64,000 nucleotides of DNA from Lactiplantibacillus mudanjiangensis (GTDB lineage: Bacteria > Bacillota > Bacilli > Lactobacillales > Lactobacillaceae): assembly GCF_005405385.1 (NCBI RefSeq), contig NZ_BJDY01000005.1, forward strand, positions 1 to 64,000, given 5' to 3'. The translations under genes were made by a program, and so were the position numbers. Each line of letters opens with the position of its first letter. Position 1 is the stretch's first letter. Positions 79 through 22,117 of this stretch are shown here, piece after piece. The notes beneath the pieces were generated by a model. That model did no database searches and had not been told where the DNA came from. It saw only the letters and a program-made list of their open reading frames with translations.

Positions 79-105
79 AAGAAAAGCCCGGCGCATACTC
101 CGAGC
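79..105 (-). terminator. Rho-independent terminator after the tRNA/giant RNA unit
   Basis: On the minus strand GCTCGG pairs with CCGGGC (6 bp, one G-T) around an 8-base loop and is followed by TTTTCTT. It marks the likely 3' end of the tRNA-Asn, tRNA-Ser, structured RNA and tRNA-Trp transcript. Confidence 0.7.
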
Positions 106-136
106 TATCCTAGAAGACTAATCTAATCAACGATTA

Positions 137-183
137 CCAGTGGTTGAGAGAGGAACACATTACCTCCAATTATTTACCACTGG
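137..183. repeat. Inverted repeat, hairpin near the 3' end of the giant RNA
   Basis: CCAGTGGT (137-144) pairs with ACCACTGG (176-183), with an inner GAGG/CCTC helix, giving a two-step hairpin. It lies between the tRNA-like element and the terminator and is probably part of the same RNA fold. Confidence 0.6.
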
Positions 184-187
184 CTAA

Positions 188-252
188 GCGGACAATGAGA
201 ATCGAACTCATATAACACTTAGGCTGCCGTTCTACCATTGAACTACATCCGC
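188..252 (-). pseudogene. tRNA-like element with a shortened anticodon arm
   Basis: Read on the minus strand it has a 7-bp acceptor stem (GCGGATG with TGTCCGC, two G-T pairs), a D arm GTTC/GAAC with the AATGGTA loop, and a perfect T arm ATGAG/CTCAT with loop TTCGATT. Between D and T arms only 17 bases are left where 22-23 are needed, so no normal anticodon stem-loop forms. It is either a decayed phage tRNA or a tRNA mimic that is a structural part of the giant RNA. No amino acid identity can be given. Confidence 0.65.
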
Positions 253-1064
253 TTTAACAGGCTGAGAATACACCCATCAGCAGCAGTCTTTAACGACCTT
301 ATTCAGTTAGTCGCGTTTCCACCCGGTTCCCCGAGTAACTGCCATGGTCGGTGGACAAGGGTACCACCATTACAATCCATTCATTACTCAGCAACTTTCG
401 ATCCATCAAATGGGAGCTACCCACTCAACTGCACTACTTACTACTGAACTGGCTCGCCTTGTGAGCTTGTCAGCACTCCATTACCTATCTCAGGCTGGAG
501 CATTAGACCACTTTCATGAATAGATGGCGAAGACTTTTACTTTTTTGATTTTATAATTAACGGTGTAATAGCCCGTTCCATATAGTAATGGAACTAATCT
601 TTCTTGAAATCCAGTGCTTCGCCAGAAGTTCCGGTACCTTTTGAGTATCAAAATGCTTCACTGGACCGATAGGCTTTGGCTGTCACGCTACTAACCATAC
701 TTGAATCACATTAGGGACTAGCGATCATTTCCCCATACGATTCAAATTGGCAACCGCCCTTGTCTGACAAACTCGGACTAATCACCTTACTTGCTAAAAT
801 CATTCACTACACCAGCTAGCCGTTATGTCGCTACCCGCATTACGGTTTGAGCACTTGCCGCCGCCGTTTACTGGTTCGTTTCTGATTGAACGCCCTCACA
901 GACGCTTTAATAGCTTGCATTGCATGAATTGCCATTACTGGCGGCTAATCGTCAAGTCAACTAACCTTTGGGCTACATCACTGTAGCTTAATGTGTCATG
1001 CCACTAAATTTTATGATGGGCTGTTGAAAAGTGCGCATGCTTCCATGCAAAACTTACCCATCAA

Positions 1065-1135
1065 CACAGACAGCAGGAATCGAACCCACGTTAACGGCTT
1101 TGGAGGCCGCTCATCTACCATTGAATTATGTCTGT
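1065..1135 (-). tRNA. tRNA-Trp (anticodon CCA)
   Basis: Acceptor stem ACAGACA/TGTCTGT is perfect, the anticodon stem is GCGGC/GCCGT with loop CTCCAAA (anticodon CCA), the T arm is GTGGG/CCTGC around TTCGATT, and the discriminator is G as usual for bacterial tRNA-Trp. The D stem is weak. No CCA end is encoded. Structured RNA lies directly on both sides, so this tRNA appears to be embedded in the giant RNA transcript and would have to be released by tRNA processing. Confidence 0.92.
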
Positions 1136-1288
1136 AAATATCGCCTAGTTTTCCGAGCTAAGCGATAGTAAAGCAATCAGGCTGGTAATTGTTGTTTCAA
1201 ACTCTTAACGGCTTAAGTGTCTGCAATACCTGTTTGCTTTGAACTAGCAAAGGGTTATACCGCGTTGAGGTTAATGCCACTGCTAGTA

Positions 1289-1375
1289 CGGAGTGAGCTG
1301 GACTTGAACCAGCAACTCAACTAGTGAGTAACGGTTTAGTAAACCGCTGCAGTACCAAATTATGCTTACCACTCC
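1289..1375 (-). tRNA. tRNA-Ser with anticodon ACU
   Basis: Class II tRNA of 87 nt with acceptor GGAGTGG/TCACTCC, discriminator G, a long variable arm and T arm loop TTCAAGT. The anticodon arm is GCGGT/ACCGT with loop TTACTAA, i.e. anticodon ACU where the standard tRNA for AGU/AGC serine codons has GCU. The rest of the arm matches the GCU type. A34 is rare in bacterial tRNAs other than Arg-ACG. The tRNA lies 2 bases from tRNA-Asn, in the same transcript. Confidence 0.9.
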
Positions 1376-1377
1376 AA

Positions 1378-1450
1378 CGTAGCCTGTTGGACTCGAACCA
1401 ACGACAACCTGATTAACAGTCAGGCGCTCTACCAACTGAGCTAAGGCCAC
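1378..1450 (-). tRNA. tRNA-Asn (anticodon GUU)
   Basis: Canonical 73-nt cloverleaf: acceptor GTGGCCT/AGGCTAC, D arm GCTC/GAGC with loop AGTTGGTA, anticodon arm CCTGA/TCAGG with loop CTGTTAA (anticodon GTT), T arm GTTGG/CCAAC, discriminator G, no encoded CCA. It is the first tRNA of the late transcript. Confidence 0.95.
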
Positions 1451-1451
1451 A

Positions 1452-1497
1452 GATTGATGAACGGGATACCGAGCGGGGTGGCTCATATCCATCAATC
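1452..1497 (-). other. Leader hairpin at the 5' end of the late transcript
   Basis: GATTGATG pairs with CATCAATC (8 bp), then GGATA with TATCC and GAGC with GCTC, giving a long, nearly continuous hairpin of 46 nt. It lies between the presumed start site and tRNA-Asn. It may protect or shape the 5' end; no known family is recognised. Confidence 0.55.
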
Positions 1498-1582
1498 AAC
1501 AATATAATAATAATCCCCATTTCCGAGCTTTTTCCGCACATACCTCGCACGTTTGTCGCAGATTTACCGCGAAAACCTCGCA
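1498..1582 (-). promoter_or_regulatory. Late promoter with five 11-bp tandem activator repeats
   Basis: On the minus strand the pattern [TC]GCG[AG] recurs at exactly 11-base steps: TGCGAGG at 1582, CGCGGTA at 1571, TGCGACA at 1560, TGCGAGG at 1549 and TGCGGAA at 1538, with a weak sixth CTCGGAA at 1527. An AT-rich -10 region (TATTAT / TATATT, about 1503-1511) follows without a clear -35. This is the layout of an activator-dependent promoter with helically phased sites. The ArpU-like gene ends 7 bases away, so its product is the obvious candidate activator. Confidence 0.6.
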
Positions 1583-4602: not shown

Positions 4603-4869
4603 TTATTTGAGTTTTCGACCACATATTGGGCAAAATCCAATTTGAATACCGGTACCTTTGCCATCACAATTTATAATCATGTGAACCCCATATGCTATGC
4701 GAACCTCTAGCCCTTTCTTATCAAATATAGGAAACTTTTTAAGGCAATACTTGCATCCGGCTCTTTTATCTTTATACAGCATTGGCCCAAACCATTTATA
4801 TGTGCTAAATGATCCCACAACAATTCCGGGGATAACACTTACTAGGAACAAAAGGTATATATATCCCAC
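4603..4869 (-). CDS. Membrane-anchored zinc-ribbon protein
   Basis: 88 residues from GTG 4869, chosen because GGAGG lies 7 bases upstream; the longer ATG frame from 4908 would include the ribosome site. One N-terminal membrane segment (about 3-22) precedes four cysteines in two pairs, CKYC and CPIC near the C-terminus (FCPICGRKLK), a zinc-ribbon pattern. Probably a small membrane-tethered metal-binding protein; role unknown. Confidence 0.65.
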   Translation of the reverse strand: MGYIYLLFLVSVIPGIVVGSFSTYKWFGPMLYKDKRAGCKYCLKKFPIFDKKGLEVRIAYGVHMIINCDGKGTGIQIGFCPICGRKLK

Positions 4870-4911
4870 GGAGCCACCTCCTCGTATTATATAAAGTAGT
4901 ACTTTCATTTA

Positions 4912-4954
4912 TCTGCAGATTTATTGCAGGAATTCAGCAGATAACCTGCAGATA
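4912..4954. repeat. Cluster of CTGCAG-type short repeats
   Basis: ATCTGCAG and CTGCAGAT lie as an inverted pair (also each nearly self-complementary) with further partial copies TGCAGG and CAGCAGAT between them. It lies in the gap upstream of the zinc-ribbon gene and could be a protein-binding site or a weak hairpin. Confidence 0.4.
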
Positions 4955-4968
4955 CTTTTAGTTAGCTC

Positions 4969-5223
4969 CTACTTAATGTCATTTAGAATTCCTTGAAGAT
5001 CCCGCTTAACATTAATGATTTGATCATGAATAACCTTAGCGCTGGCTTCTGGCTTATCCTTGGTAAATTCAGCTACATCGGCAATCTCTACAAGTAATAA
5101 ATCTAATAACGTCCCCAAGTCATTAAGGTTATGGACGCTATCAAGGTCATAATTAGTATCGCCAAAAAAATTGATATGACCGATTAGTTCTAGTACTAGC
5201 TGTTCAACTGAATACTTTTTCAT
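4969..5223 (-). CDS. Small phage protein, function unknown
   Basis: 84 residues, acidic and helical, beginning MKKYSVEQLVLELIGHINFF. Ribosome site TGGAGGCAGCAAA precedes ATG 5223. No family recognised. Confidence 0.7.
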   Translation of the reverse strand: MKKYSVEQLVLELIGHINFFGDTNYDLDSVHNLNDLGTLLDLLLVEIADVAEFTKDKPEASAKVIHDQIINVKRDLQGILNDIK

Positions 5224-20397: not shown

Positions 20398-20646
20398 ATG
20401 ACAGAAAATAAGAAATTTACCTGGGACCCAATCAAGATGGCTGAACCGACAGAATTTATGGACTACGAGCAACTCATGGAACGCTTAAAAAAAGATCTGG
20501 GTATCAAGGATAAAAGCTTCTGGGTATTCGATATGCAGGTTCCTCATAACGAAGCCGAATATCAAGAAAGCTTAAGAGTCGTGCGTATGATACGAGGTAT
20601 GGCTACTAAGGCCGTAGATAAACGAAAGGATGATTCAATTGACTAG
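20398..20646 (+). CDS. Small protein in front of the integrase
   Basis: 82 residues from ATG 20398 (TTGGAGGAATTAAGC upstream). Helical and charged, beginning MTENKKFTWDPIKMAEPTEF. It overlaps the integrase start by 17 bases. The position suggests an excision or directionality factor, which for serine integrases is often a small unrelated protein, but this is inference only. Confidence 0.6.
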   Translation: MTENKKFTWDPIKMAEPTEFMDYEQLMERLKKDLGIKDKSFWVFDMQVPHNEAEYQESLRVVRMIRGMATKAVDKRKDDSID

Positions 20647-22117
20647 AAGCGTTGGCATTTATGTACGTGTCTCAACTGAAAATCAGGTTGATGACGGTTA
20701 CTCAGTCGGTGAGCAAACCGACAAGTTGAAAAAATATTGTGAAATCAAGGACTGGAGCGTCTATAACGTTTATACGGATGGTGGCTGGTCGGGTTCAAAC
20801 ATCAAACGCCCCGGCATGGAAATGCTGGTTAAGGACGTTAAAGCTCATCAAATAGACACCGTTCTGGTGTACAAATTAGACCGCCTATCGCGTTCTCAAA
20901 AGGACACCTTATATCTGATCGAAGACGTATTTAACGCGAATGACGTGGCCTTTATAAGCCTCAACGAGAACTTTGACACCTCCACTGCATTCGGTAAAGC
21001 CATGATCGGGATTCTTTCTGTGTTTGCTCAATTGGAACGTGAACAGATCACTGAACGCATGCGTATGGGACGTATTGGACGCGCTAAGGCCGGTTACTTT
21101 AAGGGTGGCCCTCATTCGCCCTTCGGATATGACTACGTTGATGGCGAGCTAAGGATCAACTTAGTACAGGCTGAAATCGTAAAACAGATTTTCACCGAGT
21201 ATGATAACGGGCTGTCACTAAACAAGTTAACGCGCAAACTAAACGCTGAGGGACACATTGGCAAAGATATAAACTGGTCTTACCGAACTGTTCGTCAGGT
21301 GCTGGATAATGATGACTACATCGGCAAAGTTCACTATTTAGGTGTTTCCTACGAGGGTAACCATCAAGCCATCATTTCAACTGAGCTTTATGAGCACGTC
21401 CAAAAAGAATTAAAGCGGCGGCAAACAGCGGCTTACAGCAAATTTAACAATCCGCGGCCATTTGTTGCCAAGTATATGCTTAGCGGACTGCTCCGCTGCG
21501 GACGCTGTGGATCAAGCATGAGCGGCCAAGCCAACTCAACACAGAAACAGATCGCGGCAGCAAAGGTCAAACATCAAGCTAGCTACTACATCCGCTATTA
21601 CTGTGTATCAAGTCGTCCATCAAAGCTGCACGGGGCCATATCCACACGGCGCAAAGACACTTGCGATTTACCAACGTATTCTGCAATCGAGCTAGAAACC
21701 AAGGTACTAGCCAAAATTGAGGACATGTCAAAGCACCCCGAAAAGGTTGCCCGGCTATTTCAACGCAAATCAGTCCAGATTAATACCGAGCCTCTAAAGA
21801 AACGACTAGTCGACATTGAAAATCAGATTGAGCGTTTTATGGACTTGTATGGATCTGGAACAATCTCAATTGATAAGATCAATGCGCGGATCGTCAAACT
21901 CAATGACGAAAAAGAAGCATTGCAAAATAAATTAGACCAGGCTGCTGACAAAGGACCCGAAGTAGCCGCTGCCAAAATGAATGAAGCCTTAGCCAGTGCC
22001 TCGGAGATTATTGCAAGTGACGATTACACGGAGCAAACAAGACTTGTGCGGTCACTCATCGATAAAGTCATTCTTAACGGTAACCGGATGACCATCAAAT
22101 GGAATTTAGATTGGTAG
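20630..22117 (+). CDS. Large serine recombinase, phage integrase
   Basis: 495 residues. N-terminal resolvase domain (about 7-150) with catalytic Ser in YVRVSTENQ, and YKLDRLSRSQKD; recombinase domain (about 165-275); zinc ribbon CGRCGSSM..C..C (about 290-345); long coiled coil (about 370-440). Integrates the phage by attP x attB recombination without host factors. It lies at the very end of the prophage, 14 bases from the stop of the split comGC. Confidence 0.95.
   Translation: MIQLTRSVGIYVRVSTENQVDDGYSVGEQTDKLKKYCEIKDWSVYNVYTDGGWSGSNIKRPGMEMLVKDVKAHQIDTVLVYKLDRLSRSQKDTLYLIEDVFNANDVAFISLNENFDTSTAFGKAMIGILSVFAQLEREQITERMRMGRIGRAKAGYFKGGPHSPFGYDYVDGELRINLVQAEIVKQIFTEYDNGLSLNKLTRKLNAEGHIGKDINWSYRTVRQVLDNDDYIGKVHYLGVSYEGNHQAIISTELYEHVQKELKRRQTAAYSKFNNPRPFVAKYMLSGLLRCGRCGSSMSGQANSTQKQIAAAKVKHQASYYIRYYCVSSRPSKLHGAISTRRKDTCDLPTYSAIELETKVLAKIEDMSKHPEKVARLFQRKSVQINTEPLKKRLVDIENQIERFMDLYGSGTISIDKINARIVKLNDEKEALQNKLDQAADKGPEVAAAKMNEALASASEIIASDDYTEQTRLVRSLIDKVILNGNRMTIKWNLDW

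Follow-up and report, generated by a model that had tools for sequence, protein, structure and literature searches.

The window (the whole 64,000-nt stretch of Lactiplantibacillus mudanjiangensis DNA analysed here, which is the start of contig C5) opens with a region that raises two questions: which RNA is encoded there, and how might this RNA obtain its ends among the tRNA genes around it? A preliminary description had pointed to a GOLLD-like giant RNA with embedded tRNAs under a phage late promoter. According to one report, GOLLD levels go up during lysis and the RNA forms a cage of 14 chains; this cage was observed in vitro for GOLLD env-38, which is located downstream of a Met-tRNA (PMC12286853). 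In L. brevis, GOLLD was dispensable for phage production, according to a second report (PMC7567579), and GOLLD is therefore called accessory here. The features of the locus were as follows.

1-53, minus: presumed late gene start, cut by the contig end (open frame from GTG; identical in locus L194)
85-106, minus: hairpin resembling an intrinsic terminator, with a T-rich tail (7-pair stem; similar hairpins in relatives)
140-186, minus: spacer hairpin with an inner GGAGG...CCTC stem (copy in L194; similar in L175, L176 and L178 by eye)
187-252, minus: tRNA-like element with a defective anticodon arm (Rfam tRNA, 44.2 bits, anticodon arm skipped; missed by ARAGORN)
256-1014, minus: very probable GOLLD cassette, 759 nt (gap against the empty site in G000:C10)
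259-668, minus: conserved 3' domain of GOLLD (Rfam RF02032, 217.5 bits)
669-1014, minus: variable 5' domain of GOLLD, 346 nt (border from the empty site; 18-nt exact stretch common to L188)
1015-1063, minus: tRNA spacer hairpin, outside GOLLD (present without GOLLD in L194)
1064-1136, minus: tRNA-Trp(CCA), without an encoded 3' CCA (ARAGORN and Rfam; a tRNA-Trp at the same place in G000:C10)
1137-1287, minus: structured spacer with three strong hairpins (fold z -4.69, 0 of 200 shuffles as good)
1288-1376, minus: tRNA-Ser(ACT) (ARAGORN and Rfam)
1377-1451, minus: tRNA-Asn(GTT) (ARAGORN and Rfam)
1453-1498, minus: leader hairpin containing GCCACCCC (also in this position in relatives)
1501-1514, minus: AT-rich -10-like stretch (read from the sequence; relatives have TATTAT or a similar sequence in this position)
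1520-1585, minus: six 11-nt repeat units (cores including TGCGA, CGCGG and CTCGG), presumed activator sites (lag-11 identity 0.46)
1590-2069, minus: late activator gene of the presumed ArpU/RinA type, 159 aa (PHROG 248 'transcriptional activator', E 4.2e-28)

Identity and occurrence of the RNA

The minus strand at 259-668 matched Rfam RF02032 (GOLLD) with 217.5 bits and E 3.4e-60, against a cut-off of 150, and the match spanned model positions 1-416 of 416. With the gathering score exceeded and the whole model covered, the proposal of a GOLLD copy was borne out, and we regard the identification at 259-668 as nearly certain. The check that had been suggested, running the Rfam GOLLD and ROOL covariance models on the minus strand, gave this GOLLD match and none to ROOL. 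ROOL is, as described in PMC12286853, also a large, cage-forming phage RNA near tRNAs; it differs from the RNA of the window in that it was not among the six Rfam matches obtained for 1-2200 with E of 1 or lower, and a ROOL identity was dropped on this ground. A protein gene was likewise discarded, in agreement with the earlier statement that no credible gene is present, because the longest open reading frames lying entirely within 79-1582 (minimum length 30 aa) reached only 70 aa (1283-1495, minus strand, over the tRNAs) and 69 aa (238-447, plus strand). The minus-strand helices that had been noticed were recovered in folds with z -2.37 for 253-1063 (0 of 20 shuffles as good), -2.59 for 669-1063 (1 of 100) and -4.69 for the tRNA-Ser/tRNA-Trp spacer at 1137-1287; for this spacer, Rfam gave no match with E of 1 or lower.

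The RNA has both parts of a GOLLD, the conserved 3' region (259-668) and a variable 5' region (669-1014), and it lies near three tRNAs in a prophage whose late half is cut off where the contig ends. The genes to the right comprise a late-activator homologue (phrog_248), an anti-repressor, DnaD-like and RecT-like genes, and an integrase (20630-22117) that also matches DNA invertases and is thus probably of the serine type.

One GOLLD match was found in the genome of the window. Counting this genome, the rate was 2 of 251 genomes in the family and 2 of 21 in the genus, one of the latter two being below the cut-off. GOLLD alone had no similarity match to plasmids (query, window 200-720) and one short Mycobacterium phage match among phage sequences. 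In Mycobacterium phage SlimJimmy (H61, OQ995428, 57261-57309), a short match to GOLLD falls in an unannotated stretch. A similarity search with the whole stretch returned 747 phage records, and the 30 listed were short matches, at tRNA genes where annotated, with a few unannotated. A genome-wide pattern scan yielded 51 stretches; Rfam, run on two of them, identified L155 (Mycobacterium) as GOLLD and L145 as not, and we take the remaining stretches to be mostly chance.

The GOLLD of the window is an ordinary new member of its family, and its setting is the notable part. It shares with RF02032 the whole 3' model, the conserved UCUCAGCCU end, the prophage location and the tRNA neighbours, whereas it has no called linker tRNA, its borders are fixed by an empty site, and a defective tRNA-like element follows directly on its 3' side.

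A second prophage with an empty site

When the tRNA-like element was used as the query, a 94% identical copy was found in the same genome, at G000:C10:14881-14946. This 15-kb contig (L194) looks like a second prophage in the same bacterium, and stretch 3370-4633 of L194 is without GOLLD. The order in G000:C10 is activator, repeats, leader hairpin, tRNA-Phe, tRNA-Trp, spacer hairpin, tRNA-like element, hairpin, terminator-like hairpin and late gene start. From tRNA-Trp to the contig end, 349 of 379 aligned positions were identical to the window (92%), and the alignment contained one large gap, of 759 nt, at window positions 256-1014. This single gap against the empty site suggests, by sequence comparison, that GOLLD is very probably a discrete cassette with these borders, and it places the hairpin at 1015-1063 and tRNA-Trp outside GOLLD. 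The earlier notion of embedded tRNAs did not hold, since the empty site puts all tRNAs outside the cassette, as flanks; a tRNA-Trp inside GOLLD was dropped because tRNA-Trp is present in G000:C10 at the empty site. The linker of the window also has no called tRNA, unlike that of 8 of the 79 GOLLD loci compared below. A tRNA within the GOLLD linker was reported previously (PMC12286853).

Upstream of tRNA-Trp, blastn gave no alignment between the leaders of the two prophages, and as read they had only the motif GCCACCCC in common. The two contigs terminate at the identical base, at the same point of the presumed late gene, as expected where the assembler met a repeat. Both cassette junctions carry CAGCC, which would fit loss of GOLLD via short-repeat recombination as one possible direction of change.

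The 5' end of GOLLD appears to lie near the cassette border, because TAAGCTACAGTGATGTAG is common to the 5' domain of the window and the 5' part of the stand-alone GOLLDs (in L188, as an exact stretch of 18 nt), although it is missing in L189. The 5' part of L188 is 338 nt by reading, compared with 346 nt in the window, and about 740 nt extend from its promoter-like site to the Rfam end. The stand-alone GOLLDs L186-L188 scored 224-226 bits, with no tRNA called. We also observed a promoter-like site of its own in each of L186, L187 and L188, and a terminator-like hairpin was scored in two of the three.

In a third prophage of the genus, G278, a shortened GOLLD match (172 nt, 78.9 bits, below the cut-off) adjoins an HNH-like reading frame; tRNA-Met lies 9 nt past it, and an anticodon-less tRNA-like element about 1 kb upstream. 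At about 3270-3440 of L190, a shortened GOLLD runs out of an HNH-like reading frame, and tRNA-Met follows 9 nt on.

Activator gene and probable repeat promoter

The product of 1590-2069 matched the phrog_248 profile and had no match in Pfam. Some of its homologues are annotated as ArpU in Lactobacillus phages; the designation ArpU/RinA is our assumption, based in part on homologue annotation. For the window and five relatives (L174, L175, L177, L184 and L185), whose repeat stretches were excised by eye, lag 11 was the top of lags 5-19. The lag-11 identity of the window was reached in 1 of 2000 dinucleotide shuffles and its best of lags 8-14 in 3 of 2000; for the five relatives, in the order given, the lag-11 value was reached in 0 of 2000 shuffles each and the best of lags 8-14 in 2, 0, 0, 0 and 0 of 2000. 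L194 also gave 0 of 2000 at lag 11, with lag 21 slightly higher. L175, L176 and L178-L182, nearly identical at the promoter, were counted once, and L183, which resembles L177, was counted with it. Repeats spaced by about 11 nt directly after the activator gene were present in all six other phages tested (these five and L194), and this architecture supports the late promoter proposed in the preliminary description. The repeat cores differ between most of the phages compared, those of L175 and L177 being alike.

A consensus scan for a sigma-70 promoter at the repeat region found none, as would be expected if the activator is needed. The activator of G000:C10 also matched phrog_248 (E 5.3e-15). 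Between the two prophages, the activators share 29% identity over 150 positions, against 92% for the shared stretch, and the repeats differ: activator and operator differ together. This joint divergence matches what a specific activator-operator pair predicts, and binding is predicted from these sequences. We consider an activator-driven promoter quite probable.

The late leader

ARAGORN called tRNA-Asn, tRNA-Ser and tRNA-Trp in the leader, and the fourth Rfam tRNA match was the element at 187-252. The motif GCCACCCC of the leader hairpin recurs in the corresponding position of L174-L176, L178-L183 and L194; L177 has GTCACCCC instead, and a reading of L184 and L185 did not show the motif. This hairpin, with which the late transcript begins in many relatives, might steer termination or stability. 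By eye, spacer hairpins with an inner stem of the GGAGG...CUCC type recur between or after the tRNAs of L174-L183. The late leader of L174 contains two tRNA-like halves, apparently nested, at 4858-4974. At 5140-5210 of L175, L180 and L181, a tRNA-Trp-like gene has a shortened anticodon loop, to which ARAGORN assigns a two-base anticodon.

For the terminator that had been placed at the end of the unit speak the 7-pair stem at 85-106 and the relatives' hairpins there (by eye), but terminator-like sites in 1-2100 numbered 3 versus 1.6 expected, so the site is weak alone. Because this hairpin precedes the late genes, they would need read-through or another promoter.

The tRNA-like element at the 3' border

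The element at 187-252 begins 6 nt past the Rfam 3' end of GOLLD. Its body, which we take to be tRNA-Gly-like, lacks the complete cloverleaf of a tRNA, with a 5-pair anticodon stem and U33; the anticodon stem has four weak pairs in the fold. Elements of this type were found in 1 of 21 genus genomes, the window's own only, and exact patterns of the element and of its spacer hairpin had no matches in viral contigs.

Could the element be a working amber suppressor, with a Gly-type body and a CUA anticodon, for readthrough of late-gene stops? CUA is present in both copies, a change from G-U to A-U leaves the 4-pair anticodon stem intact, and ARAGORN called tRNAs with a cta anticodon in some GOLLD loci, e.g. 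L010 and L111. However, tRNAs carry U33 in the anticodon loop, and here the loop has C at that position, next to a stem of four weak pairs. Moreover, ARAGORN rejects the element, and other phages have elements entirely without an anticodon arm. We consider a suppressor function highly improbable.

Alternatively, the element may be a decaying tRNA-Gly, and GOLLD would obtain its own ends from its fold and exonuclease trimming; the tRNAs would be mere neighbours of GOLLD, since phages gather both in one non-coding late leader. The element does look degenerate, and its isolated fold did not stand out from shuffles (z -0.81, 46 of 200; copy, z -0.69, 55 of 200). Nevertheless, it is kept in two prophages, and the two copies show 4 differences, all outside the acceptor and T arm, which are identical.

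GOLLD in Mycobacterium tRNA clusters also has tRNAs up- and downstream, as described in PMC6582537. There a pseudo-tRNA was reported inside GOLLD, whereas in the window the defective tRNA is outside, at the 3' border, in the late leader of a temperate phage.

tRNAs around GOLLD at other loci

We compared 79 GOLLD loci, all of them matched by Rfam, which fall into 33 clusters at 90% identity. L028 and L112 were kept just under the cut-off (149.6 and 148.8); L094 (partial, below the cut-off), L155 and L121 were excluded; L189 and G203:C5, with the same length and score, were counted as one record; and the cores of L035, L037, L062 and L065 are truncated where their available DNA ends. One exact-motif scan gave 119 viral stretches, 75 with a GOLLD match, and their 3' ends are alike by selection.

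On the 3' side, 78 loci had at least 100 nt downstream. A called tRNA started within 100 nt of GOLLD in 24 of them (9 of 33 clusters), and 28 had a terminator-like site within 150 nt (counted without a shuffle control), 4 of these also with a tRNA. Neither was found at 30 of the 78, including the window, L054 and L042, which have tRNA-like elements, and L084, where ARAGORN missed a tRNA-Met. A reduced tRNA at L084 was dropped, as the reading is a divergent tRNA-Met, and it was excluded from the count. tRNA-Met occurs at +9 (L051, L068) or +16/17 (the L018 cluster, L019), in three clusters, and the +5 position of L054 holds a 47-nt element with acceptor and T arms. The stretch GTGACTCC...GAGTYWAAA was seen past the Rfam 3' end in L005, L015, L051 and L055, with tRNA-Met before it in L015 and L051.

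Of the 79 loci, 62 extend for at least 600 nt upstream of the Rfam start. Within this distance a called tRNA was present at 6 of the 79, located 395 nt away in the window, 418 in L014, 437 in L189, 451 in L010, 459 in L042 and 537 in L006. A 43-nt armless element of L189 ends 346 nt before the Rfam start, and the 5' domain of the window is also 346 nt. A scan for acceptor-plus-T-arm elements gave 49 hits in 103,068 bases versus 1.6 in shuffles, a few of the 49 looking like chance.

These data bear in both directions on a GOLLD that makes its own ends. The distances of the 3' tRNAs, from 9 to over 80 nt, are in its favour, as are the stand-alone GOLLDs L186-L188, which, having no called tRNA, indicate that tRNAs are not required for GOLLD. 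On the other hand, a tRNA or reduced tRNA stands at +5 to +17 in separate GOLLD clusters, and anticodon-arm-less elements recur and covary elsewhere, as described below. We consider self-made ends beside incidental tRNAs rather unlikely.

A family of anticodon-less tRNA-like elements

A 60-nt element that has acceptor, D and T arms but lacks an anticodon arm occurs in relatives in which GOLLD is absent (L196-L315, L122, L175, L179). A scan with its D-arm sequence defined a set of at least 120 viral contigs; complete elements were found in at least 119 contigs, with at least 47 distinct sequences, and ARAGORN called 0 of the 119 listed. The D-arm pattern was present in 8 of 21 genus genomes, the window's own not among them. 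In the 47 sequences listed, the tRNA shape pairs in 98.7% of cells, one T-stem pair being broken in 6 of 47; columns 7-29 of the alignment are fixed by the pattern and carry no information. Changes affecting both sides were seen for four pairs (10 of 500 shuffles) and for 14 cells (0 of 500), of which 13 belong to the T stem; in both cases the shuffles ignore relatedness. The minimum-energy fold of L197, which has another shape, was dropped, with 1 both-side-changed cell (132 of 500 shuffles).

At 65 of 114 listed loci, a promoter-like site precedes the start of the element by 50-59 nt, and 43 of the 114 have no such site within 300 nt. GCCACCCC was found within 1500 nt upstream at 9 of 119 listed loci, and a called tRNA within 800 nt upstream at 41 of 119.

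Such tRNA-like elements could act in trans, e.g. as decoys for tRNA-modifying or tRNA-cutting enzymes, GOLLD being an unrelated passenger. This would agree with how common the anticodon-less elements are without GOLLD, whose end motif TCTCAGCCT occurred in 0 of the 119 listed loci. However, the position 50-59 nt after a promoter-like site also suits cutting of the transcript, and we give action in trans very little credence. More tentatively than for the locus itself, we propose that anticodon-arm-less tRNA-shaped RNAs may be cutting signs in the late leaders of temperate phages of lactic acid bacteria, GOLLD being one released cargo. The 60-nt element is the clearest sign for this proposal, because it is common in these prophages, its structure appears to be under selection, and ARAGORN does not see it.

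Proposed release of GOLLD

For the window, we somewhat favour a model in which GOLLD is a cassette in an activator-driven late leader and is released by tRNA-processing enzymes. From the observed identity, cassette borders, layout and repeats, the model predicts activator binding, co-transcription, cleavage sites, a cage and a role. An ArpU/RinA-type activator would bind the 11-nt repeats and turn on one late transcript, comprising the leader hairpin, tRNA-Asn, tRNA-Ser, tRNA-Trp, a spacer hairpin, GOLLD, the tRNA-like element, a second spacer hairpin, the terminator-like hairpin and the late genes. Host RNase Z would cut after tRNA-Trp, which has no encoded CCA, and set the 5' side of GOLLD; host RNase P would cut at the 5' end of the tRNA-like element, so that the 3' end of GOLLD would lie a few nt beyond the conserved UCUCAGCCU. 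Both enzymes read the acceptor and T arms, so the anticodon arm would be free to decay; the tRNA-like element would need these two arms, and decoding would be unnecessary. Late in lytic growth, the freed GOLLD would then form a cage of several RNA chains and serve as an accessory factor. By analogy, cage formation here is likely; we see an even chance for tRNA-type processing. Points against the model are the stand-alone GOLLDs, the small number of loci with a called tRNA on the 5' side, the 30 loci with neither tRNA nor terminator-like site on the 3' side, the dispensability reported in L. brevis, the unremarkable fold of the isolated tRNA-like element, the place of the terminator-like hairpin ahead of the late genes, and the restriction of this type of element to one genome of the genus.

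Processing by tRNA punctuation operates in mitochondria, where tRNA-shaped elements also flank another RNA, as they do here, where they would mark its cuts. In the present case, however, cutting is predicted from sequence, and some of the markers have no anticodon arm. In the titles and abstract openings of mostly non-subscription literature, we found neither tRNA-type processing of GOLLD nor anticodon-less tRNA-like elements in Lactobacillus phages. Late expression of this GOLLD should follow from what PMC12286853 states.

The two prophages of one genome, with and without GOLLD in a common setting, offer a ready comparison that bears on how GOLLD gets its ends, when it is made and what benefit it brings. 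The neighbouring tRNA-like elements suggest that a class of phage RNA, not called by ARAGORN, has been overlooked.
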